DNA of 64,000 nt from Knoellia sp. Soil729. GTDB taxonomy: Bacteria > Actinomycetota > Actinomycetes > Actinomycetales > Dermatophilaceae. The DNA lies in the NCBI RefSeq assembly GCF_001427985.1, contig NZ_LMSA01000001.1, forward strand, positions 945,164 to 1,009,163, given 5' to 3'. Under the pieces are notes generated by a model. The model was given only the letters and a program-made list of their open reading frames with translations. It had not been told where the DNA came from and did no database searches. This document shows positions 2,571 to 26,165 of the stretch, one piece after another (positions within the stretch are counted from its first letter, which is position 1; each line of letters begins with the position of its first letter). Made by a program: the position numbers and the translations under genes.

Positions 2571-3899
2571 ATGCAGACCACGGACACCACCCACACCAAC
2601 GAGGGCGCAGGCCGTCCCACCCGCCGCGCGATCCTCGCCCTGCCGGTCGCAGCAGGACTGCTCGCGTCAGGAGCGGTCAGCGCGCCAGCGCATGCCGGCG
2701 CGCCGCGGCTGGCGCCAGGTGCCGGCGCCGCCGGCCTCGTCGTCCTTGACTGGAACCGGATCATGCTCCGCACCTTCGCCGAGCCACCGCCCGCGGGTCT
2801 TCCCGTCCCGGTCCAGGGTCTGTATGCCGGCTTCGTCGGCGCAGCGGTCTCCAACGCCGTGGTCGCGGTCGAGGGCGGCTATGCCCCCTACGTCCCGCAA
2901 GCCCCGGCTGCGCGTGACGCCTCGGTCGAGGCAGCGGTGAGCACGGCCGCACGAGAGGTGCTCGGTGCGCTGGTCCCGTCCTCGGCAGCGAACCTCGAGG
3001 ACGACCTCCAGCGCTGGCTCAGCCAGGTGGGCGACCCGGCCGCCAGGGCTGCTGGTGTGAGCGCCGGCCACCAGGCGGCCGCGCTGGTCCTCGCCGCACG
3101 CGTGGGCGATGGCCGCGGCGCACCGGTCACCCTCACCACGACGCCCGGTCCAGGAATCTGGGATCCACCGCCCACCGGGATGCTGGTGCCGTGGCTGGGC
3201 TTCGTCCGGCCGATGGCGGTGCCCAGCCAGACATGGCTGGGGCTGCCCGGCCCGGATCCCCTCGACAGCGACCGCTACGCGGCCGACTTCGCAGAGGTGG
3301 CGTCCATGGGATCCCGGACAGGGTCGGCACGCACCCAGGAGCAGACCGAGAACGCGCTGTTCTACAACGCCAACGCCGTGGCCCAGTACAACGTCGGGCT
3401 TCGGAACCGCCTCGCCCGGGACGGCAGCAGGGCCCGCGAGGCCTCCCGGGCGCTGGGCTTGCTCAACATCACGACCGCCGATGCCCTCATCAGTTGCTGG
3501 CGCGTCAAGTACGACGTGCACAACTGGCGACCCCAGCAGGCGATCCAACGCGCCGGAACGGATGGCAACACCGCGACGGTGGCCGACGCGACCTGGGAGC
3601 CGCTCGTCCTGAACCCCCCGTACGGCGACTATGCCAGCGGACACGCGTGTCTGACCGGGGCCTTCAGCGAGACGATGGCCAACCTCTACGGGCGCAGCAG
3701 AATCGACGTCGACCTCTTCTCGAGCATCACCGGGACGACGCGGCACTACGCCAACGCCTCGGCCGTCAACCAGGACACCAAGAACGCCAGGATCTGGCTC
3801 GGGCTGCATTTCCGCCGCGCCAAGGACGACGGCAACCGCATCGGCCGCAAGACGGCCGACCACGTGGTGCGCACCGTCCTGACACCGGCTGGCTCCTGA
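2571..3899 (+). CDS. Vanadium-dependent haloperoxidase-like / PAP2-superfamily protein, exported
   Basis: A 442-aa protein with a twin-arginine-like N-terminus (RPTRRAILALPVAAG then AHA near residues 40-42), so probably exported by Tat. The C-terminal half carries the vanadium haloperoxidase/acid phosphatase ligands: K313 with R320-P321 (KYDVHNWRP), an ASGH motif at 355-358 and R407/H413 (ARIWLGLHFRR). These bind vanadate or phosphate. The upstream ATG at 2550 is possible, but AGGAG sits 9 nt before the ATG at 2571, which decides the start. Whether it halogenates or is a phosphatase cannot be told from sequence. Confidence 0.8.
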   Translation: MQTTDTTHTNEGAGRPTRRAILALPVAAGLLASGAVSAPAHAGAPRLAPGAGAAGLVVLDWNRIMLRTFAEPPPAGLPVPVQGLYAGFVGAAVSNAVVAVEGGYAPYVPQAPAARDASVEAAVSTAAREVLGALVPSSAANLEDDLQRWLSQVGDPAARAAGVSAGHQAAALVLAARVGDGRGAPVTLTTTPGPGIWDPPPTGMLVPWLGFVRPMAVPSQTWLGLPGPDPLDSDRYAADFAEVASMGSRTGSARTQEQTENALFYNANAVAQYNVGLRNRLARDGSRAREASRALGLLNITTADALISCWRVKYDVHNWRPQQAIQRAGTDGNTATVADATWEPLVLNPPYGDYASGHACLTGAFSETMANLYGRSRIDVDLFSSITGTTRHYANASAVNQDTKNARIWLGLHFRRAKDDGNRIGRKTADHVVRTVLTPAGS

Positions 3900-3949
3900 C
3901 GCCACGTGACGCCTGCGAGGAGCGGCCGGCGTCTCCACGACGGACACGG

Positions 3950-3985
3950 ACGAGGGCGGCCCACCCGGTGGTGGACCGCCCTCGT
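3950..3985. terminator. Bidirectional terminator hairpin
   Basis: ACGAGGGCGG and CCGCCCTCGT form a 10-bp perfect stem, extended inward by CCACC/GGTGG. It lies between the convergent haloperoxidase-like gene and groEL. Confidence 0.7.
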
Positions 3986-4019
3986 GATGAGCGTGGTGCG
4001 TAGAGCTCCGATCAGGTGA

Positions 4020-5790
<1,771 letters not shown>

Positions 5791-13628: not shown

Positions 13629-14795
13629 ATGCCGGTCAACCGCCTTCTGCCCACCGACGAGGGTCGCGACCTCATCGAGCTCACCCGCGAGATCTGCACC
13701 AAGGAGCTGCGTCCACGCGTCGACGACGCGGAGCGCGCTGCCGCGACGAACGAGGCCTTCCCCACCGAGGTTTTCCGCACCCTCGGGCGGGCCGGGCTGC
13801 TCTCGCTCCCCCACCCCGAGGAGCACGGTGGCGGCGCACAGCCCTACGAGGTCTACCTCCAGGTCGTCGAGGAGATCGCCTCGGCGTGGATGAGCGTGGC
13901 CGTCGGCGTCTCCGTGCACTCCCTCACGGCCTACCCCGTGACGACGTTCGGCACCCCCGAGCAGCAGGCAGCGCTCCTGCCGGGGATGCTGTCGGGCGAC
14001 CAGCTCGGCGCCTACGCGCTGTCGGAGCCGCTGGCCGGTTCGGACGTCGGGTCGATGACCACCCGGGCGACACGGACCGACGACGGTGACGGGACGGCAT
14101 ACGCGATCAAGGGCCGCAAGGCCTGGATCTCGCACGCCGGTCACGCCGACTACTACACGACGTTCGCGCGCACGTCCGACGACGGCGGACGCGGGCTGTC
14201 ATGTTTCGTCGTCCCGGCCGGTTCCGACGCCATGAGCTTCGGTGCGCCGGAGAAGAAGATGGGTCTGCACTGCGACACGGTGCGCGAGGTGATCTATGAC
14301 GGCGTGCCCGTCGACGAGGCGAACCGCATCGGCGACGAGGGTCAGGGCATGGCCATCGCGCTGTCCGCGCTCGACGCGGGACGGCTCGGGATCGCTGCCG
14401 GCGCAACGGGTCTGGCACAGTCGGCGCTCGACGAGGCAGCTGCCTATGCCAAGGAACGACAGCAGTTCGGACGCCCCATCGCCGCGAACCAGGGGCTGGC
14501 GTTCATGCTCGCGGACATGGAGGCTGCGGTGTCCGGCGCACGCGCCGCCTACCTGTATGCCGCCCGCCTCAAGGACGCGGGCCGTCCGTTCTCCAAGGAG
14601 GCCGCCGTGGCCAAGCTTCTCGCGACCGACGCGGCGATGAAGGTGACCACCGACGCCATCCAGGTGCTCGGTGGTGCCGGCTACACCGCGGACTTCCCGG
14701 TGGAGCGCTACTTCCGCGAGGCCAAGGTCACGCAGATCTTCGAGGGGACCAACCAGATCCAGCGCCTCGTCATCAGCCGTCACGTCCTGCGCTGA
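13629..14795 (+). CDS. Acyl-CoA dehydrogenase
   Basis: A 388-aa FAD enzyme of the acyl-CoA dehydrogenase family that makes the 2-enoyl-CoA in fatty or branched acid breakdown. Family marks are YALSEPLAGSDVGS, the flavin-binding KAWISHAGHAD region, FGRPIAANQG and the C-terminal VLGGAGYTADFPVERYFREAKVTQIFEGTNQIQRLVI segment (partly quoted here in words: the PVERYxREAK and EGTNQIQ motifs). The ATG is 7 nt after TACAGT (13616-13621), suggesting a leaderless start. The acyl-chain specificity cannot be judged. Confidence 0.92.
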   Translation: MPVNRLLPTDEGRDLIELTREICTKELRPRVDDAERAAATNEAFPTEVFRTLGRAGLLSLPHPEEHGGGAQPYEVYLQVVEEIASAWMSVAVGVSVHSLTAYPVTTFGTPEQQAALLPGMLSGDQLGAYALSEPLAGSDVGSMTTRATRTDDGDGTAYAIKGRKAWISHAGHADYYTTFARTSDDGGRGLSCFVVPAGSDAMSFGAPEKKMGLHCDTVREVIYDGVPVDEANRIGDEGQGMAIALSALDAGRLGIAAGATGLAQSALDEAAAYAKERQQFGRPIAANQGLAFMLADMEAAVSGARAAYLYAARLKDAGRPFSKEAAVAKLLATDAAMKVTTDAIQVLGGAGYTADFPVERYFREAKVTQIFEGTNQIQRLVISRHVLR

Positions 14796-14835
14796 CCCGG
14801 CCTGCCCCGACGAGGGCCCGACCCCGGGAATGTCG

Positions 14836-14864
14836 GACCGGGCCGTCTCATACACGGCCCGGTC
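14836..14864. terminator. Terminator hairpin between convergent genes
   Basis: GACCGGGCCGT and ACGGCCCGGTC form an 11-bp perfect stem, followed by CACCTCTTTATA, between the acyl-CoA dehydrogenase and MFS genes. Confidence 0.75.
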
Positions 14865-14935
14865 ACCTCTTTATAGGTGTCGCAGCCCTCCCTGACGGTG
14901 ACCGACACGCGTCGGCCGTGTGAACCGGGGGCAGA

Positions 14936-16279
14936 TCAGTCGGGGTCGCGCGAGATCCCGGGCAGCAGCGTGTCGCCACCCCGCAACGCGTCCAGGGCGC
15001 CGGGGTGCTCGTCGATGTAGTCCAGGCCCTTGTGGCGGTATCTCCAGATCTGCACGGCTCCGAGCCCCCACAGGAGGAACTGCACCGACATGGCAATCTT
15101 GAAGTCTGTGAGCGTGTAGGTGCCCGGACCGCCGGGCGCGAGCTGGTCGAGGATGAGCCCGACGAGCGCCATCGTCACGAGGGAGGCGAAGAAGCCGCCG
15201 ATGTTGATGACACCCGTCGCCCGCCCCAGCCGGTCCGAGGGGTGGAAGCTGCGGGCCAGGTCGAAGCCGACCATGGAGCCGGGGCCGCCGAACCCCACGA
15301 TGCAGACCAGCAGCACGAGCAGCGGTAGGGGTGCGCGGCCGGGCCAGGCGATCACCGCGGCCCACACGAGCGCGATGGCACCGACGATGCACAGGACGAT
15401 CTGCGACCGCCGGTAGGGCAGCCGCCCGGTGAGGCTGCCGACGAGCGGCCCCGCCACCATCGAGGAGACGGTGAGGGTGATGAGCAGACCTCCGGCGACG
15501 GCGGGGCGAAGCCCCTGCCCCTCGACGAGGAACGGGTAGCCCCACAGCATCGTGAAGACCGTTGCCCCGAACTGCCCGGTGAAGTGGATCCACATGCCCA
15601 GCCGCGTGCCGGGGTTGCCCCACACCTCGGCGAGCGTGCGTCGCAGGGCCCGCACCTTGATCTTCTCGACGGCCTCGCCGGTGTAGGGCGAGTCCTTGAC
15701 CACGAGGACGAGGCCGACGAGCAGCAGGGAGCCGGCCCCCGCGGCGATGGAGAAGGTGCGGTCCCAGCCCCAGCGGTCGAGCGCGATAGCCAGCGGAGTC
15801 GCCGCGGCCACCGCCCCGAGCTGTCCCACCACACCGCTGAGCTGGGTGATGACCGGAGCCTGCTTGACGTGGAACCACAGGGCGACGAGCCGCAGCATGC
15901 TCGTGAAGATCATCGCGTCACCGATGCCCAGGAGAACGCGCGCGGCCAGCCCCATCTCGAAGCTGTGCGAGACGGCGAACCACAGCTGGCCCACCGTCAT
16001 GAGGACCAGCCCGATGATGAGCAGGAGGCGCGAGCCGAAGCGGTCGAGGAGCACGCCCACGGGGATCTGCATCCCGGCATACACGACGAGCTGGACGACC
16101 GTGAACGTCGCGAGCTGCGACGCGGAGATGTCGAAGCGCTCCGCGGCGACCAGACCCGCGACGCCCAGGCTCGTGCGGTGGAAGACGGCGACGGTGTAGA
16201 CCGCCAGCGCGACCGCCCAGATGACCCAGGCGCGCCGGCGGCCGATGTCGTGCACCTGGCGTCGAAGGGGGCGAGTCAC
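14936..16279 (-). CDS. Major facilitator superfamily transporter
   Basis: A 447-aa membrane protein with about 12 hydrophobic segments, including WVIWAVALAVYTVAVFHRTSLGVAG at the start and a GVLLDRFGSRLLL loop (MFS motif A, GxLxDRxGxR). It resembles the nitrate/sugar-phosphate-type or OFA-like MFS members of actinobacteria; the substrate is unknown. The GTG start has TAGGAT 6 nt upstream (16286-16291), indicating a leaderless message. It is the last chromosomal gene before the tRNA-Thr/island junction. Confidence 0.88.
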   Translation of the reverse strand: MTRPLRRQVHDIGRRRAWVIWAVALAVYTVAVFHRTSLGVAGLVAAERFDISASQLATFTVVQLVVYAGMQIPVGVLLDRFGSRLLLIIGLVLMTVGQLWFAVSHSFEMGLAARVLLGIGDAMIFTSMLRLVALWFHVKQAPVITQLSGVVGQLGAVAAATPLAIALDRWGWDRTFSIAAGAGSLLLVGLVLVVKDSPYTGEAVEKIKVRALRRTLAEVWGNPGTRLGMWIHFTGQFGATVFTMLWGYPFLVEGQGLRPAVAGGLLITLTVSSMVAGPLVGSLTGRLPYRRSQIVLCIVGAIALVWAAVIAWPGRAPLPLLVLLVCIVGFGGPGSMVGFDLARSFHPSDRLGRATGVINIGGFFASLVTMALVGLILDQLAPGGPGTYTLTDFKIAMSVQFLLWGLGAVQIWRYRHKGLDYIDEHPGALDALRGGDTLLPGISRDPD

Positions 16280-16399
16280 CGCTCGATCCTAGGGAGAACC
16301 GGCGTATGCCGTGTGCACCGTCCGCGCACCGCGTCCGTCGTCCGCGGTTGTGCAGGTAAAGTGCGGGGCGCCGTCGGGGGCGCATGCTCGCCGACGTGC

Positions 16400-16472
16400 G
16401 CTGGCGTGGCGCAATTGGTAGCGCACCTGTCTTGTAAACAGGTGGTTGAGAGTTCGAGTCTCTTCGCCAGCT
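16400..16472 (+). tRNA. tRNA-Thr (anticodon TGT)
   Basis: A complete cloverleaf: acceptor GCTGGCG/CGCCAGC, D stem GCGC/GCGC, anticodon stem CCTGT/ACAGG with loop CTTGTAA (anticodon at 16433-16435), T stem GAGAG/CTCTT. CCA is not encoded. Its 3' half is the left attachment core of the genomic island. Confidence 0.97.
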
Positions 16473-16473
16473 C
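16437..16473 (+). repeat. attL core: 37-bp direct repeat in tRNA-Thr 3' end
   Basis: The 37 bp from AACAGG to CAGCTC at the tRNA-Thr 3' end recur exactly at 26129-26165. Five more bases (CTTGT) also match beyond one mismatch. This is the classic tRNA attachment-site duplication. Confidence 0.93.
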
Positions 16474-16647
16474 TCCACGTATGCGCAGGTCGGGGTGCGT
16501 TTCTGCCTCGGCGCGACCGTCGAGCCGACCGGTGTGCAGGTCCGTTTCAGGTCCGTTAGCCCCGTGACCGACTCACAAAGTCCCTGCCGCGCGGTCGTGG
16601 AGTTCCGCGCGGAACTCCCGTAGCATCGAGTACGTACTAATTGAAGA

Positions 16648-16734
16648 TGGTGCCCCGGACGGGACTCGAACCCGTATGCCCTACCAGGCGGCAGATTGAC
16701 AGTCTGCTGTGTCTTCCAGTTCCACCACCGGGGC
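16648..16734 (-). tRNA. Atypical class II tRNA with GTC anticodon, CCA encoded
   Basis: On the minus strand: acceptor GCCCCGG/CCGGGGC, 3-bp D stem GTG/CAC with a GAACTGGAAGA loop, anticodon stem GCAGA/TCTGC with loop CTGTCAA (anticodon GTC), a 15-nt variable arm with GCC/GGC stem, T arm ACGGG/CCCGT, discriminator A, and genomic CCA. The long arm, D loop and A73 are like tRNA-Leu, but the anticodon is that of Asp. True tRNA-Asp has a short variable loop. It is within the island. Either a decoding oddity, a tRNA with another role, or a decaying copy. Confidence 0.8.
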
Positions 16735-16741
16735 CGTCTAG

Positions 16742-16787
16742 GAGCCCCGGTTGCTCGCGAGGTGACACTCACGGTGCGCCGGGGCTC
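16742..16787 (-). terminator. Hairpin downstream of the 16797-17357 gene
   Basis: GAGCCCCGG and CCGGGGCTC make a 9-bp perfect stem just past the stop of the minus-strand gene and before the tRNA-like gene. The stem repeats the tRNA acceptor sequence. Confidence 0.5.
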
Positions 16788-16796
16788 TGCCTTTGG

Positions 16797-17357
16797 TCAG
16801 CCGTCCATGTCACGCTCCTGGCCCCATGACGGCACGGTGCCCCAGTCCACGGGCTCGGGGTCCTCGTCGGGCGTCGACTCATCCTCTTCTGCGTCGAGCC
16901 CGTCCGGCTGCGCTTCGGGAGTCGCGAGTGCGGCCCGGTATCGTCCGCGCCCCACCTTCTCGATCTCCTCGCGCTTCGCCAGCCGGAGCAGAGCCGTTCC
17001 GAGCGCGTTGCGGCGGTTCTCGGCGTCAGTCTCCCAACCACGCTCGTTCATTTCGAGCAGGAGCGTTTCGACCCTCCATACGCGAGTGGGGTCCTCCGCG
17101 AGGATCGCGAGCACGAGCGGGTTGGTGCCTCGGTCTTCAAGGTCCTCTGCCGGAGGGCGCTTCACTCCCACCTTCAGTGTCGATGTCGCGGACATGCCGA
17201 CCCCCACAGGATGGTCATCCGCCGATTCGCCCTCTAACGCCGCGATGGCCCTATTGAGCCGCTGCAGATGCTGCCACCGCTCGTCGGCCGCAAGCTGGGC
17301 CTGCAGCGCGTCGCGGGCCTCGCGAACCATGGCGAGCATGTTGTCGAAGTCGGTCAT
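16797..17357 (-). CDS. Island protein of unknown function with winged-helix-like region
   Basis: A 186-aa acidic protein. An N-terminal helical stretch (MTDFDNMLAMVREARDAL, QHLQRLNRAIAALEGE) may form a coiled coil. Residues about 85-140 (VLAILAEDPTRVW, LLRLAKREEIEKVGRGRY) look like a winged-helix domain. The tail is Asp/Glu-rich. The start at 17357 is supported by a full promoter: TTGCAC, 17 nt, CATACT, then 6 nt to ATG. It is therefore probably a leaderless transcript. No function can be assigned; a regulatory role for the island is possible. Confidence 0.65.
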   Translation of the reverse strand: MTDFDNMLAMVREARDALQAQLAADERWQHLQRLNRAIAALEGESADDHPVGVGMSATSTLKVGVKRPPAEDLEDRGTNPLVLAILAEDPTRVWRVETLLLEMNERGWETDAENRRNALGTALLRLAKREEIEKVGRGRYRAALATPEAQPDGLDAEEDESTPDEDPEPVDWGTVPSWGQERDMDG

Positions 17358-17825: not shown

Positions 17826-18430
17826 ATGGCAACCACGGCCGAGCCGGTGGTCGACCTGGAACGGATCTACACCCGGAAGAAGGCCGCGGACAAAGAGCTC
17901 AAGGACCTCGTCGCGGCGACCAGGACCTCCCTGCTGGGCCTGCACGGCATCGGCCCCTCCGGCGCCGCCCGGCTCCTGGTCGAGGTCGGTGACCTGTCCC
18001 GCTTCCCTGACCGCAACCACTTCGCGTCCTGGACCGGCACCGCCCCCATCGACGCCTCCTCCGGCGACCAGGTGCGCCACCGCCTCTCCCGCGGCGGAAA
18101 CCGTCAGATCAACCGGGTGCTGCACATCATGGCCACCGTCGAACTGCGCACCCCCCCACCGAAGGACGCGCCTACTTCGACCGGAAGAAAGCCGTCGGCA
18201 AGACCTCGATGGAAGCCATGCGCTGCCTCAAACGACGGCTGTCCGACCTCGTCTACCGCACGATGCTCGGCGACTACACCGCCAGCAAAATGACGGGCCC
18301 GGGAGGGCAACGGGGCAACGACTCTGACTCCAGCGCGACCGGCTCACAACCCCACACCGGCACTTCGGACAAGCCACTTCCCGGACCCGCCAACACCAAG
18401 CCTACGACCACCCTGCCAAGGGCCTCTTGA
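17826..18430 (+). mobile_element. IS110-family transposase remnant (C-terminal half, frameshifted)
   Basis: The frame carries the Transposase_20 helix-hairpin-helix region (LLGLHGIGPSGAARLLVEVGD, FASWTGTAPIDASSG, RGGNRQINRVLH), with the continuation (FDRKKAVGKTSMEAMRC, RRLSDLVYRTML) in a shifted frame after a run of seven C near 18152-18158. One base is missing. The N-terminal DEDD catalytic domain is absent. No terminal inverted repeats are expected for IS110. It is a dead remnant or a sequencing slip plus truncation. Confidence 0.85.
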
Positions 18431-19929: not shown

Positions 19930-20316
19930 TCAGGGAGCAGTAACCCTCAGGATCTGGGCGAGCACTCGGCCCAGCGCGTGGCCGTCCTTGGGTCCGTCGC
20001 CTGTGAGTTGCACGAGCACGTCGTCAGGCTCCAAGCCCTCCACACTGAAGCGCGCTTCACCGCTCGCAGGGTCGAGGTAGATCCAGTAGTCGATGCAAGG
20101 CGGCGGCCATTGATCCTGCCCGTAGGAGTCGATGATCCCGCTGTCGGGGTAGCGATCCGCGAAGAGAAGGGGCTCGGCCTCCCACAGCAGGGCCGAAACG
20201 CGACCGTTGGGGTCCGACATCACCTGACGGACGAACCCGACGTTCGCTAACTCGCAAATGGGGTCGCAGACCGCGCACACGGACTGAGCCCAAGCTTGGT
20301 CCAAGACGGTTGCCAT
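19930..20316 (-). CDS. Hypothetical island protein
   Basis: A 128-aa soluble protein, MATVLDQAWAQSVCAVCDPICELANVG at its start, with WPPPCIDYWIYLDPASGEARFSVEG in the second half. Three Cys lie near the N-terminus (CAVCDPIC), a possible but unproven metal site. It has no recognised domain. The ATG at 20316 follows TACTTT by 6 nt and is preferred to an upstream ATG. It is opposite in strand to, and sits between, two paralogous membrane protein genes. Confidence 0.5.
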   Translation of the reverse strand: MATVLDQAWAQSVCAVCDPICELANVGFVRQVMSDPNGRVSALLWEAEPLLFADRYPDSGIIDSYGQDQWPPPCIDYWIYLDPASGEARFSVEGLEPDDVLVQLTGDGPKDGHALGRVLAQILRVTAP

Positions 20317-20483
20317 GCGATCAAAGTAGTGTCCAAGCACCAAGGGGCCGTGGGAGTGCACCCGGCGACGAGCGCGGTTGGCGGCAAATTCGGTTAACGC
20401 CCCACGCTGATGAGCGTGCGCGATGCGGTGCGCCTCTATGGGGACGAAGGAGCCACGGAGCCATCGTGGCCTACGCTCTAATC

Positions 20484-20831: not shown

Positions 20832-23615
20832 TCAATCGTCCTTGACGAAACGTGCTCGGATGACCGCGGACGGATGGTTCCGCAGTGCCGCGTCGAGGTC
20901 GGCCAGTTTCTCGTCCGGATAGGCGGCGAGACCCTGGGCGATGCCGTCGACGAGCGCGCAACCGTTCTCCTGCATTAAGGCGCTGCGGATAATAGCGAAG
21001 GCCCGGTCGCGATCTGCCGGAAATCGGTGGGCGTGCTCGACGATGCTGAAGCCGGCCTGTGCACGAACGATGGGGTTCTCGTCGACGACAGTTGTCGCGA
21101 GGAACGGGAGTTTGCGTTCAGAGTTCCAGGCGCCAAGGGTCCGGACGAACCCGACCGGGTTGTTTCGGCGCTCGGCCAGTAGGAGTGATTCGACTTCGAG
21201 GTCAGGGATGGTGCCGGCGGCGATGCGCAGGTGGGCGACTGCGGCGCCGAACTCGTTGCGGCCGCCGCCGAAAGTAAAACCGAACGATGTTCCGCGCAGG
21301 TCAGGGGCCAGCTTTCGGAGCTTTCGCTGCACATGCGGCGGAAGCGTCTGGAAGCGACTGGCGAGCCTGCGAATGGCGCGCTGCTGTTGGGTCTGTTCGA
21401 TGACGCACGCCTCTAGGGCGTCGGTGACCTCTTTCCAAAGCTTGGTGTCATTGCTTTGGAGGGCCGCCAGCGTGAGGTCGTCGAGCTGGTCGCTGACATA
21501 CCCGGTCATCTTTCTGGTGCCGTCCTTGCCGCGGGCATCGTGAACCATGGTTCTGACGGTGCGCGCGGCGCTGCGACCGAAAGCGATGAAGTCATCGTGT
21601 TTGGTGGACCCAGCGACCAGGAGTGATCGAACCGCATTGTTGTTGCCAGCGTCCGCGTGGCGGCGCAACTCGGCAACGGCAGCGGCATGGCTGGGAGCGA
21701 TGGCTTCGAGCAAGTCGATGCCGTAGTGGTCGTCACGTGCCTTTGCGGCCTTCAGGAGCCGGTTGAGGCGGGCGCCACCGAGGTCGGGTGTCGCGAGTGC
21801 ATTGGCGACGCGCACGAGGGAGTCAGCTACCGAATCGTCGCAGGTGGCGAACTCGGCAGCGATGAGGTTGGCGACCTCTCTATGGGAAGTATTGGTGGCT
21901 GCTTTCAGGAGACGGCCAAGTGCGGTGTCGACTTCACCCCACCGGTAGGTCCAGGCGCTTCCGTGGACGCGCACCCCTCCCTCGGTGTGAAGCAGATCGA
22001 GGATCCGCCGGATGACATGGTCTGCGGCCTTGGTGTCCAAGAGGTCGCCGGCCTCGGAGAGCACGCCCATGATTGGTCCTTCTTCGCGCTTGGACCAGGG
22101 CCGGTACGCGTAGATGTGTACGAGCCCGTTGAGCGGTTCAACAGGCTCGTCCATCCACATCTTCCGGGTTGCATTCTTCGCGGCCTTCTTCTCGCCGACG
22201 AAGACGAGCGAACGGAGCGCTTCGATGAGCTGGCTGGGGTCGTCGCTGGAGGTGAACGTCAGGTGGGCGTTCATTGTGGTGAGGTGGCGCCAGGAGCTCC
22301 AACCTCCGCTCACCGCAGCATTCCAGGCGACGACCGCGAGGTCAGCGCGGGCCGTGCTATCGATGAACTGGATGGATCTGTTGTCAGTCCACCCTTCGAA
22401 TCGGAGCCTGAGGTCCTTCTCGAGGGCCCAGTTGACGTCCTGCGCTCGCCACCAGTTCCCCGCGTTGTCCTGGGCGGTGATGGTGGCTTCGATGTCGCCA
22501 GCGGCGAAGCCGGCGACCGAGTAGAGGATGGAGGCGGCGCCGCCACGGATGGCGCTGACCGAGAGGTCGCCCTCAAGAGACTTCAGAGCTACCAAGGCCC
22601 TTTTCGCGGCTGCTGCGGCCTCGGCTGGCCGGTCAAGCTCGAGGAGGAAAGCGGACTGGTGGACGCTGAGCCAGCCGCGGTCGGCCGGTCTGGTCGCCTT
22701 GCTGGGTACCACGGTCGGGAGCGCTTCGGTGGGTTTGTCGCTGGCGTAGGTGGCGCAGGCGTGGAGGACGAGGCAAGCATCGCGTTCGAAGCGGTGGCGT
22801 GCGTCCTGGGCGAGCTGTATGAAGCGGACGCTGGCGCCTTGGGTGACGAGCTCGTGGAGTGCGTGGACGAATCGCCAGCCCCAGTCCTTGTGGAACTCCC
22901 ACTCTTCGGTCTTGGGACACTGGCCCTGGTGGCCGCGGTAGGCGAGTTCGGAGTACCGGTTCCGCATGACCATGGCTGCGGCTTCTTCGAAGGTGAGTTC
23001 CTCGATGTTCTTGTTCGGATGAGGTGCGACCAAGCGGGGCAGGATGAGGGCGTTTCTGAGGCGGTCGGCAGGTCCGAGCTCGCTGAGGCTGCCGCTCCAT
23101 ACTGCGCCCTCGAGGTCGTACTTGCGGCGCGAGACCGCAATCTTGGTAAGCGTCTCAGCGTTGTCTGCGTCGACCTTTTGAGCCGCCGGGACAAAGATCT
23201 TGCGGCCCTTGCCGGTCGGGACGATAGCGTCGCCGGTGACCTCGGCCCAGTAAGCGATCTGGTTCTCGGTGTCGACGAGGACCAGCAGGTACGGAAGGCC
23301 AAACGACAGCCAGTGGTCGAAGTGATATGTGTCGGATTCGGCGAACCACCATCCGGGTTGTCCCTTCCGTTTGTTGGTGGGCTTCAGGTACTCACTGTCG
23401 CTCCCCTTAACCTGCATGAACACGGGTGCGCCGAGATCCCACGCGTCGCCCTTCTCTTCGGGGGCGGCAGTGTCGCGAGCGAATGTGACGAGATCCGTGC
23501 CGATGTCCTCGCTGAGCTTCACCGGGGGAGCCCAGCCGATGTCGGCAAAGATGACGGCGGCTTTGAGCTCCCCTCGGGAGCCTGTCGTTTTGGTGGGATG
23601 CACTGGCGTGGTCAT
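20832..23615 (-). CDS. DUF4365 (PD-(D/E)XK-like) N-terminus plus large helical C-terminus
   Basis: A 927-aa protein. Residues 10-170 match DUF4365: GSRGELKA (E16), DIGTDLVTF (D41) and MQVKGS (Q68-V69-K70), the layout of a PD-(D/E)XK nuclease core, then WWFAESDTYHFDHWLSFGLPYLLVLVD (quoted in part) and a sheet-rich end. From about residue 200 the protein is helical with many Ala/Leu-rich repeats resembling TPR or HEAT arrays up to the end. DUF4365 proteins occur in phage-defence settings. It is divergent from the ATPase gene 279 bp away. A nuclease with a sensory or scaffold helical body is an inference. Confidence 0.75.
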   Translation of the reverse strand: MTTPVHPTKTTGSRGELKAAVIFADIGWAPPVKLSEDIGTDLVTFARDTAAPEEKGDAWDLGAPVFMQVKGSDSEYLKPTNKRKGQPGWWFAESDTYHFDHWLSFGLPYLLVLVDTENQIAYWAEVTGDAIVPTGKGRKIFVPAAQKVDADNAETLTKIAVSRRKYDLEGAVWSGSLSELGPADRLRNALILPRLVAPHPNKNIEELTFEEAAAMVMRNRYSELAYRGHQGQCPKTEEWEFHKDWGWRFVHALHELVTQGASVRFIQLAQDARHRFERDACLVLHACATYASDKPTEALPTVVPSKATRPADRGWLSVHQSAFLLELDRPAEAAAAAKRALVALKSLEGDLSVSAIRGGAASILYSVAGFAAGDIEATITAQDNAGNWWRAQDVNWALEKDLRLRFEGWTDNRSIQFIDSTARADLAVVAWNAAVSGGWSSWRHLTTMNAHLTFTSSDDPSQLIEALRSLVFVGEKKAAKNATRKMWMDEPVEPLNGLVHIYAYRPWSKREEGPIMGVLSEAGDLLDTKAADHVIRRILDLLHTEGGVRVHGSAWTYRWGEVDTALGRLLKAATNTSHREVANLIAAEFATCDDSVADSLVRVANALATPDLGGARLNRLLKAAKARDDHYGIDLLEAIAPSHAAAVAELRRHADAGNNNAVRSLLVAGSTKHDDFIAFGRSAARTVRTMVHDARGKDGTRKMTGYVSDQLDDLTLAALQSNDTKLWKEVTDALEACVIEQTQQQRAIRRLASRFQTLPPHVQRKLRKLAPDLRGTSFGFTFGGGRNEFGAAVAHLRIAAGTIPDLEVESLLLAERRNNPVGFVRTLGAWNSERKLPFLATTVVDENPIVRAQAGFSIVEHAHRFPADRDRAFAIIRSALMQENGCALVDGIAQGLAAYPDEKLADLDAALRNHPSAVIRARFVKDD

Positions 23616-23894
23616 TGGGCCAGTGGAGCAGATCGGACGCGTCTGCGTCGCGCTCTGATGTTCTGACGCTGGCGTGCGTCACCTTGGTGGTGCGACGCGA
23701 CCCCCGATGGACTAGCGCGCTCATCGGCACGACCGCGCGGATCGCGGCATGTCCGGAAGTTCATCGGCCACCTACTCCTAACCGATGCGGCGTGCGCCTA
23801 CGTCATGGGCAACTCTACCCAGCCCGCGCTGAGCGCTGCTGCATGTATCTTGACGATCCATGGGCGCAGCACTACGGCTTTCGGAGGGGGACTT
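23616..23894. promoter_or_regulatory. Divergent promoter region of the putative defence pair
   Basis: A 279-bp gap without a gene separates the divergent DUF4365 and ATPase genes. An in-frame extension of the ATPase from 23805 is possible but lacks conservation. GGAGGGGG sits 4 nt before the GTG at 23895 and sets that start. Confidence 0.5.
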
Positions 23895-25841
23895 GTGAGG
23901 ATCACGAGGGTTGAGATCGCGAAGTGGCGAAATCTCGAAGGGGTTGAGTTCGACGTCTTCCCCGAGGCACGGGTTGTTTGCCTCGTGGGCGAGAACGGGT
24001 CAGGCAAGAGCACCGGTCTCGAACTGCTCTCGTTCGTGGCGCACAATTTGGGGATCAGTTCGGGATTCGAGTCATCGCGCGGGGATCCCCGAAGCGAACC
24101 GCACGACTTCAGAATCACCGCCTTAGTCCCTCTAAACATTCAAAATGCGGTCAATGAGCAGTTTTCATCCTCACTTCCCGATGGAGGATGGAACGGCTTG
24201 CTCGAGTATCGAGCAGCCAAGGACGACGAAGTCGGCGTCGTCGAACAGACGACGGCGCTGGGAATCGACGACGTGGGGATAAGCACTCAGGTCGCGCAAA
24301 CCGCAATCACTACTTTCCGCGCGCAGTTGGGCACGCAGCACCTTTACCTAGACGCGGACCGCGCCTACCCACCGATGCAGATTCAGCCGCACCAGTACAA
24401 CGAGATCCTGTCGCATGATTGGACTTCGGAGGCCTTCACCAAGCAGTTCTCCTTTCGCCCCACTCGAACCCTCTATGAGGAGTGGCACAAGTACTTCATC
24501 GCTTTGGAGGAGAGGGTTTCGGGCGCGCATGTCGCCGCAATCCGGGAATCCCGAGCGACGAACTCCGCTGCACCCGAGTTCGTGGACCCGTTCGATGACT
24601 ATTCAAGTGCCGTACAAGAGTTGTTGCCGCACTTGCGGTTCGTCGGGGTGGAGGGGTCCGGCACCTTCCGCACGATCCTTTTCGATAGCGCGGGCCTGAA
24701 GATTCCCTTCTCCAAGTTGAGCGGCGGGGAACGTGAGATAGCGTTCCTTATAGGACAGATTGATCGATTCGGTTTGCGCCAAGGGCTGCTGATGATCGAT
24801 GAGCCGGAGCTGCATCTAAATCCTGACTTACTACGAACATGGGTCGCCTACCTGCGAGACAGCGTCCAGGACGGGCAAGTCTGGTTGGCGACACACTCGT
24901 TGGAGGCAGTCGAGGTTGCGGGGCCGGAAGCGTCGTTTGTCTTCGAGAAGGACGTCGCAGATCGCGTAACGAGGCGCGTTACGGCTCTCGTTGGACGCCC
25001 GGCCGTAGCGGCTCTGTCCGCAGCGATCGGCGCCCCAGCGTTCTCCATCTCGAAACTTCGTTTTGTCTTCGTCGAGGGAGATAGGCAAAGTCGCGAGCGT
25101 GAGCGCTTCTACGACCTCTGCGGGGACCCCAACCTCAACAGATTCATTGAAGGAGGGAGCTGTCACGAGGTGCTGCGACGCCTCGCTCACGTGACAGAGT
25201 TGGCAGCGGAAACAGGGGAACAGTTGAGGGTGGGGGGCGTTCTTGATCGAGACTTTCGATCGGTCGACGAGGCGACCCTGCTGGGGGCCAACGAAGGCGC
25301 ATACGTCCTCGAGTGCCATGAAATCGAGAACCTGTTTCTGCATCCTCCAGCTATAGACGCGATCACCGCTCGAGGGGGTGGTGGCGAGACACGATCAGGT
25401 GTCGAAATAGTGCGAGATGCGGCCGATTCTTTCGCGGGACTGTGGATTGCTCAGTGCGCGGATAGCAAATTGCCTGAACTCGACATGACCCCCAAGGGTG
25501 CTTTGAGTGAACTGAGTGGGCTTGCGAGATCCGCGTTGCAGCCCATTTGGGTTGCAAAGCGGGATGCTAGCGCGAGCCACTTTGCCTCTCATGACGAGCA
25601 AACCTTGTGGGCGCAGGCGCTTGACGGCGCTTTCACAGAATTCGAGGAACGCAGATCCGCGCAGGAATGGTGGTCCGAATGCCTCGGTAAGCAGACTGCA
25701 AAGACGGTTTCACAGATTCTCGGATTCGCGAATGTTTCTGTGTTCCAAGCCAACGTCTTGCAACTCTGGAATAACGGCGACATTGCAGTGCCACAGAGCC
25801 TGCAGAGCCTCAGGACGTACGTCGATGGGCTAACGAGCTAG
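23895..25841 (+). CDS. AAA/ABC-type ATPase fused to a DUF4435/TOPRIM-like domain (OLD/PARIS-like)
   Basis: A 648-aa protein. The ATPase part has Walker A GENGSGKST (32-40), signature LSGGE (275-279), Walker B LLMIDEPELHLNP (298-310) and switch THS (333-335), as in the RecF/OLD-like AAA_15/AAA_21 ATPases. From about residue 385 comes FVFVEGDRQSRERERFY (VEGD 393-396), GVLDRDF (448-454) and HEIENLFL (475-482), acidic motifs of the DUF4435/TOPRIM-like nucleases. The same domain pair forms AriA-AriB of PARIS and resembles OLD nucleases. It is divergent from a DUF4365 gene. Lower GC than its surroundings. Anti-phage function is inferred. Confidence 0.8.
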   Translation: MRITRVEIAKWRNLEGVEFDVFPEARVVCLVGENGSGKSTGLELLSFVAHNLGISSGFESSRGDPRSEPHDFRITALVPLNIQNAVNEQFSSSLPDGGWNGLLEYRAAKDDEVGVVEQTTALGIDDVGISTQVAQTAITTFRAQLGTQHLYLDADRAYPPMQIQPHQYNEILSHDWTSEAFTKQFSFRPTRTLYEEWHKYFIALEERVSGAHVAAIRESRATNSAAPEFVDPFDDYSSAVQELLPHLRFVGVEGSGTFRTILFDSAGLKIPFSKLSGGEREIAFLIGQIDRFGLRQGLLMIDEPELHLNPDLLRTWVAYLRDSVQDGQVWLATHSLEAVEVAGPEASFVFEKDVADRVTRRVTALVGRPAVAALSAAIGAPAFSISKLRFVFVEGDRQSRERERFYDLCGDPNLNRFIEGGSCHEVLRRLAHVTELAAETGEQLRVGGVLDRDFRSVDEATLLGANEGAYVLECHEIENLFLHPPAIDAITARGGGGETRSGVEIVRDAADSFAGLWIAQCADSKLPELDMTPKGALSELSGLARSALQPIWVAKRDASASHFASHDEQTLWAQALDGAFTEFEERRSAQEWWSECLGKQTAKTVSQILGFANVSVFQANVLQLWNNGDIAVPQSLQSLRTYVDGLTS

Positions 25842-26128
25842 CGGTCGCCAGGGGGCCAGTTCGATGCACTCTCTACCCAGCGCGAGTGGTCCGCTCATCG
25901 GCATGTGCGAGCGTTGTCGAAGGTCAGGTGCAGCGTGACGCTCTCCTAATGTTGGGGACTCCCCCGGGGGACGCAGGTCGCGGAACGTGGAGTTAGCGAC
26001 AACTGTTGACAGAGATGGTCATGGCTCATCGCACAGGGATCGCACGGCAACGGAGCGGCGACCAAACCGTCCTGGCGTTTGCGCAGGTCAACGACGGTTT
26101 TCGGAGTCCCGTCAGCGCGAGGCTTGTC
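25842..26128. other. Right end of island, no gene seen
   Basis: About 290 bp between the ATPase stop and the attR repeat. Only short frames occur, and no RNA gene or clear hairpin is visible. Confidence 0.5.
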
Positions 26129-26165
26129 AACAGGTGGTTGAGAGTTCGAGTCTCTTCGCCAGCTC
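26129..26165 (+). repeat. attR core: second copy of the tRNA-Thr 3' end
   Basis: Identical over 37 bp to 16437-16473, including the T arm and 3' acceptor strand of tRNA-Thr but not the 5' half, so it is not a second tRNA. Marks the island's right border. Confidence 0.93.

Follow-up and report, generated by a model that had tools for sequence, protein, structure and literature searches.

A tRNA-Thr-integrated island that probably carries two independent anti-phage modules: a divergent single-chain PARIS-like protein and a stand-alone nuclease-solenoid protein

Results

Organization of the island

The window, by which we mean the whole 64,000-nucleotide stretch of Knoellia sp. Soil729 DNA that was analyzed, contains a 9.7-kb island integrated at a tRNA-Thr gene, and this island carries two large divergent genes (Table 1). 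The minus-strand gene encodes a protein with a DUF4365 head and a long alpha-solenoid body (hereafter P0001), and the plus-strand gene encodes a single chain joining an ATPase to a DUF4435-type Toprim domain (P0002). The open reading frame of P0002 opens at ATG 23805 and ends at 25841. Its likely start is GTG 23895, since a GGAGGGGG stretch (23883-23890) ends 4 nt upstream of this codon and since this start results in a 279-bp intergenic gap. With this start, the list of open reading frames agrees with a preliminary description of the locus, which had reported divergent genes separated by a gap of that size. Residues of P0002 are numbered here from CTT 23892, which is not a start codon, and are one higher than if counted from the GTG. 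A consensus scan of the gap gave no sigma-70-like promoter.

The tRNA-Thr gene and an imperfect direct repeat of its 3' end delimit the island, whose GC content is 63%, compared with 70% to its left and 71% to its right; that of the ATPase gene is 58%. The earlier placement of both genes in a tRNA-Thr island is thereby borne out. An ACBP gene adjoins the island on the right and has strong matches in five of the eight other genomes of the genus. In two of these a tRNA-Thr gene lies upstream of the ACBP match, at ~315 bp (L021) and ~960 bp (L019), and in the remaining three loci no tRNA was found within ~1.5 kb on either side. Six short open reading frames of the window were scanned (five inside the island, one just outside); none encodes an integrase, and one inside the island is a fragment of an IS110-family transposase.

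The island also contains a tRNA gene (16648-16734, minus strand) that was called as tRNA-Asp(GTC) but has a long variable arm; the most complete matches to it in relatives are tRNA-Leu(CAA) genes (73-76% identity, five loci examined). It thus resembles a tRNA of the Leu type that bears an Asp anticodon, and it might be inactive or might place leucine at Asp codons. No copy of it turned up when viral contigs were searched by pattern.

Table 1. Features of the island and copies of the recurrent partner gene. Coordinates are those of the window, or of the named locus for the partner copies.
Feature	Coordinates	Strand	Details
tRNA-Thr (TGT)	16400..16473	+	island left end; ARAGORN; Rfam 71 bits
IS110-family transposase fragment	17826-18293	+	inside island
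DUF4365-solenoid gene (P0001), 927 aa	20832..23615	-	Pfam; family alignment; PDB profile
Alpha-solenoid body of P0001, ~residues 210-925, TPR/HEAT-like	20841..22988	-	AlphaFold; PDB profile; Pfam on family
DUF4365 domain of P0001, residues 34-159, with D41, Q68, K70	23139..23516	-	Pfam E 6.9e-16, 59 bits
Divergent intergenic gap, 279 bp	23616..23894	.	between P0001 gene and GTG 23895
Single-chain ATPase-DUF4435 gene (P0002), fused AriAB/PARIS-like	23895..25841	+	likely start GTG 23895; PADLOC AriAB 97.2 bits; Pfam
ABC/OLD-type ATPase part of P0002	23901..24974	+	Walker A GENGSGKS, signature LSGGE, Walker B MIDEPE, H-loop THS
DUF4435/Toprim part of P0002	25062..25367	+	FVEGD, LDRDF, HEIENLF
43-bp direct repeat of tRNA-Thr 3' end	26123..26165	+	island right end; 42/43 identical, longest exact run 37 bp
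Partner gene, L007	12857-13996		
Partner gene, L010	11096-12346		
Partner gene, L038	3873-5036		
Partner gene, L052	7011-8120		
Partner gene, L050	5860-7107		

P0002 is probably a divergent PARIS-like protein

The ATPase part of P0002 matches the Pfam families AAA_21 (55 bits) and AAA_15 (46 bits), each over its cut-off. DUF4435, the only C-terminal Pfam family listed for the protein, was matched at E 7e-6 with 26.4 bits, 0.6 bit under the gathering cut-off of 27. In all eight aligned sequences, P0002 included, the Walker A, signature, Walker B and H-loop motifs are conserved without exception, as are the Toprim residues E395, D452 and D454. Three relatives from plasmids and five from viral contigs share 22-30% local identity with P0002; three of nine plasmid matches were used and six left out. 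These results agree with the earlier reading of P0002 as an OLD/RecF-like ATPase joined to the VEGD and DRDF motifs of a DUF4435-type Toprim nuclease.

When the 5,027 PADLOC models were ranked by bit score, the best for P0002 was the AriAB model PDLC02981 (97.2 bits, E 2.5e-28), which spans the DUF4435 region. AriA (64.5 bits), a second AriAB model (62.2) and mad3 (62.1) came next, which puts the best AriAB score 33 bits over AriA and 35 over the best non-PARIS model; 120 models match at E 1. Among the best 25 of 69 NCBIfam matches, none came near its curated cut-off. The relatives L040 and L041 reach 582 and 447 bits with a fused AriAB model, and L042 reaches 88 bits with the AriAB model that P0002 matches best. 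We conclude that P0002 is likely a divergent single-chain PARIS-like protein and, judging from its relatives, a candidate nuclease that is probably a tRNase.

The PDB was searched with a profile of P0002 and seven relatives, which gave 278 matches including AriA (E 8e-13). The best 60 of these are mostly ABC ATPases, with another AAA family ATPase at the top and no AriB among them. A phmmer search of the PDB with the C-terminal part of P0002 gave no match, and an AlphaFold model from a six-sequence alignment has a mean pLDDT of 42, too low for the model to be relied on. P0002 had no match in the Phages collection, and a single-protein search of viral contigs found no relative; the alignment of its family recovered at least seven viral loci.

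On a Paraburkholderia plasmid (L040, 2063-6338), an ATPase gene and a DUF4435 gene, each standing alone, are followed in tandem by a fused ATPase-DUF4435 gene, so that split and fused PARIS-like genes stand in one row. A weak ATPase-like open reading frame (3702-5444) also precedes the fused-type gene of viral contig L043.

P0001 combines a DUF4365 head with an alpha-solenoid

DUF4365 is the only Pfam family found in P0001. Of the head motifs named in the preliminary description (E16, D41 and QVK 68-70), all 12 aligned family members, the window copy included, share the residues D41, Q68 and K70; E16 stands less firmly, as only 9 of the 12 keep it. All 12 members match DUF4365, and some also match repeat families (HEAT_2 in five, HEAT in three, TPR_19 in two, TPR_12 in one), of which none is matched by P0001 itself. 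A PDB search with the family profile matched designed alphaRep and HEAT-repeat proteins with the C-terminal part and DUF4365/DREN-APAZ proteins with the N-terminus. The helical body of roughly 700 residues described earlier is thus supported by both the relatives and the profile. With a profile of the head only (ten sequences), three DUF4365 sequences of known structure were matched, the best being the DREN-APAZ subunit of SPARDA (9jsb, E 6.8e-7).

The AlphaFold model of P0001, built from three sequences, has a mean pLDDT of 49 with best blocks of up to 82, and confidence is low in the region of the DUF4365 head. The 50 Foldseek matches listed for this model have TM-scores of at most 0.26, which indicate a helical solenoid only, and phmmer found no match to P0001 in the PDB. 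Relatives were found on actinobacterial plasmids; five of eight plasmid matches were used, and H6-H8, which are annotated with an IS3 transposase, were left out. The Phages collection gave one match, covering 14%, and viral contigs gave no relative with either the single protein or the family alignment. Excerpts from the literature on DUF4365 and on antiphage HEAT-repeat proteins contained no description of a DUF4365-solenoid protein. PADLOC has no dedicated model for the nuclease-solenoid family to which P0001 belongs, and of the two modules this family is the more novel.

The two genes are not linked in the other loci examined

We assembled 13 different loci, window included, in which the DUF4365-solenoid gene is full-length, dropping duplicates of the same locus (L002/L009, L003/L010, L013/L051, L014/L052) and leaving out the short DUF4365 proteins of L005, L015 and L016. 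A relative of P0002 was found in none of the 12 other loci when all open reading frames were searched with two P0002-family profiles (flanks of 2.7-10.7 kb a side). Three of the copies, in L006, L009 and L007, are 72, 69 and 62% identical to P0001 and have flanks of 6.5-10.7 kb a side; those of the other loci are 2.7-9 kb. Conversely, the loci of 11 P0002 relatives (L012 and L040-L049, flanks of 1.5-6 kb) all lacked a DUF4365-solenoid gene. This second test is weak, as no close relative of P0002 was found: the 11 relatives share 22-43% local identity with it, eight matching into the Toprim part and three in the ATPase part only.

Among 186 genomes of the family, five gave a match to P0001 at E 1e-3 (its own included, one match short), and six of 394 genomes of the class did so at E 1e-10 (its own included, two short). 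At E 1e-10, P0002 was matched in 1 of the 186 family genomes, its own, and in 2 of the 394 class genomes. In G198, another genome, both proteins have weak and incomplete matches, which lie on different contigs.

A recurrent neighbor and probable defense genes near the DUF4365-solenoid gene

In four of the 13 loci, the DUF4365-solenoid gene has beside it, in the same orientation, a gene for a protein of 369-416 residues (the ~390-aa partner). The partner gene abuts the DUF4365-solenoid gene upstream in L010 and L038 and lies downstream of it in L052 (by 45 bp) and L007 (by 78 bp). A fifth copy, in L050, has no DUF4365-solenoid gene within ~6 kb. The five copies align, the other four being 36-69% identical to the first, and those of L010, L038 and L007 have no Pfam match at E 0.1 and no PADLOC match at E 0.01. 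The window does not contain this partner. It was also found in 0 of 376 genomes of the phylum, a count that carries no information because the sample contained no known holder (known holders would have matched).

Further neighbors include AbiE genes (L038) and an AbiEii gene with a restriction endonuclease (L039). In L007, a gene on the minus strand (14139-17171) that adjoins the DUF4365 gene and its partner encodes a 1010-residue SIR2-domain protein with a weak STAND-type NTPase match; these surroundings are probably a defense neighborhood. SIR2, AbiE and restriction genes as neighbors fit a defense role of the DUF4365-solenoid gene without proving it.

Discussion

We favor, with a probability of roughly three in four, the view that the island holds two independent anti-phage modules: a divergent single-chain PARIS-like protein and a stand-alone nuclease-solenoid protein. 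The preliminary description had instead proposed a single undescribed system made up of both genes, which would share a divergent promoter region. They are indeed divergent neighbors across a 279-bp gap in one small island, but the other gene was found neither in the 12 other DUF4365-solenoid loci nor in the 11 loci of P0002's distant relatives, and the DUF4365 gene has another recurrent neighbor. We therefore reject the proposed pairing, chiefly on the lack of linkage in the 12 other DUF4365-solenoid loci, and regard such a system as very improbable. The recurrent neighbor itself raises another option, compatible with the two-module reading, namely a still undescribed two-gene system built around the DUF4365-solenoid gene, with the ~390-aa partner as second component; the window would then hold a partner-less copy. 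Four of the 13 loci, in which the two genes are adjacent and point the same way, speak for it, and L009 and L006, 69-72% identical to P0001, lack the partner just as the window does. However, nine of the 13 loci are without the partner, its position varies among loci and it also occurs with no DUF4365 gene nearby (L050), so that we consider this option rather unlikely.

A comparable degree of doubt attaches to the idea that P0002 is instead an OLD-like or other ATPase-Toprim nuclease (of the HEC-04, IbfA or retron effector class), which would cut DNA and would not respond to anti-restriction proteins. P0002 does match the PADLOC models of mad3 (62 bits), PtuA (56), HEC-01A (41) and GajA (35), and the PDB profile of its family matches OLD, PtuA and AriA alike. 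Against this stand the lead of AriAB over AriA and over every non-PARIS model in PADLOC and the presence of DUF4435 as the sole C-terminal Pfam family listed, and we think that an OLD-like nuclease is the less likely identity.

Under the two-module reading, and by extension from PARIS relatives, the AriA-like ATPase half of P0002 would sense a phage trigger, its AriB-like Toprim half would then be activated as a nuclease, probably a tRNase, and the infected cell would stop growing. P0001 may act as a stand-alone effector in which the DUF4365 PD-(D/E)XK nuclease is held inactive on the alpha-solenoid, which would probably sense an infection signal. We infer the autoinhibition of P0001 and the triggers, substrates and defense role of both proteins; the domains, the catalytic residues, the borders of the island and the lack of linkage in the loci examined are observed directly. 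A broader proposal, which we advance tentatively and at somewhat less than even odds, sees in the Actinomycetes proteins that join a DUF4365 nuclease to an alpha-solenoid an anti-phage family not described so far. It would be the nuclease-headed counterpart of DSR2 and, in some genomes, would act with the ~390-aa partner. The kind of system already known, fused PARIS, can now be set apart from the nuclease-solenoid proteins and their partner, which are apparently undescribed.

The genes of PARIS form either a cassette of two or a single fused gene according to Rousset et al. (PMC9122126), who also give rules for detecting the fusions, and AriA and AriB are fused in some cases according to excerpts of a 2025 paper (PMC12409363). 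Given these descriptions of fused PARIS, the single-chain ATPase-DUF4435 form is known; the earlier recognition of a PARIS-type combination in one chain agrees with these sources and with the PADLOC ranking. The same excerpts describe AriB as a Toprim tRNase whose activity leads ribosomes to stall at AAA codons (lysine) and, to a lesser degree, at ACA codons (threonine), and report that in two-gene PARIS an AriA hexamer keeps three AriB subunits inactive (PMC12409363). Like fused PARIS (AriAB), P0002 has an AAA_21/AAA_15 ATPase and a DUF4435-like Toprim in one chain with the catalytic acids kept, but it scores 97 bits with its best AriAB model, compared with 582 for the clear member L040. In two-gene PARIS, AriA lets AriB go as a free dimer. 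A separate AriB can leave its ATPase whereas the Toprim of P0002 could not, and the protein thus poses a testable question: how is a covalently tethered Toprim activated? The OLD family and the ATPase-Toprim proteins HEC-04 and IbfA (described in excerpts of PMC12111858) also have both domains in a single chain, but P0002 as a whole fits AriAB models better in PADLOC.

P0001 shares with SPARDA (DREN-APAZ) a DUF4365 head with a D, Q and K catalytic set. Its D41, Q68 and K70 are counterparts of the SPARDA catalytic residues, which in excerpts of the published accounts are D41, Q60 and K62 of NbaSPARDA (PMC12205087); Q62 and K64 were mutated together in TmuRE (PMC10810196). P0001 differs in having an alpha-solenoid of ~700 residues in place of APAZ and no short Argonaute beside it. 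The PADLOC model of the short-Argonaute nuclease (Aga_REase) matches only the head: across four family members scanned, the match reaches no further than position 147-151 of 429, so that there is no sign of APAZ. The genes on either side (P0002 and 19930-20361) show no Pfam match of Argonaute type. We rejected membership in SPARDA on these two grounds. DSR2 carries a SIR2 NADase head on a HEAT-repeat body. P0001 can be likened to it by layout alone, as both place an effector head on a long helical-repeat body within one protein, but the head is a SIR2 NADase in DSR2 and a DUF4365 nuclease in P0001.
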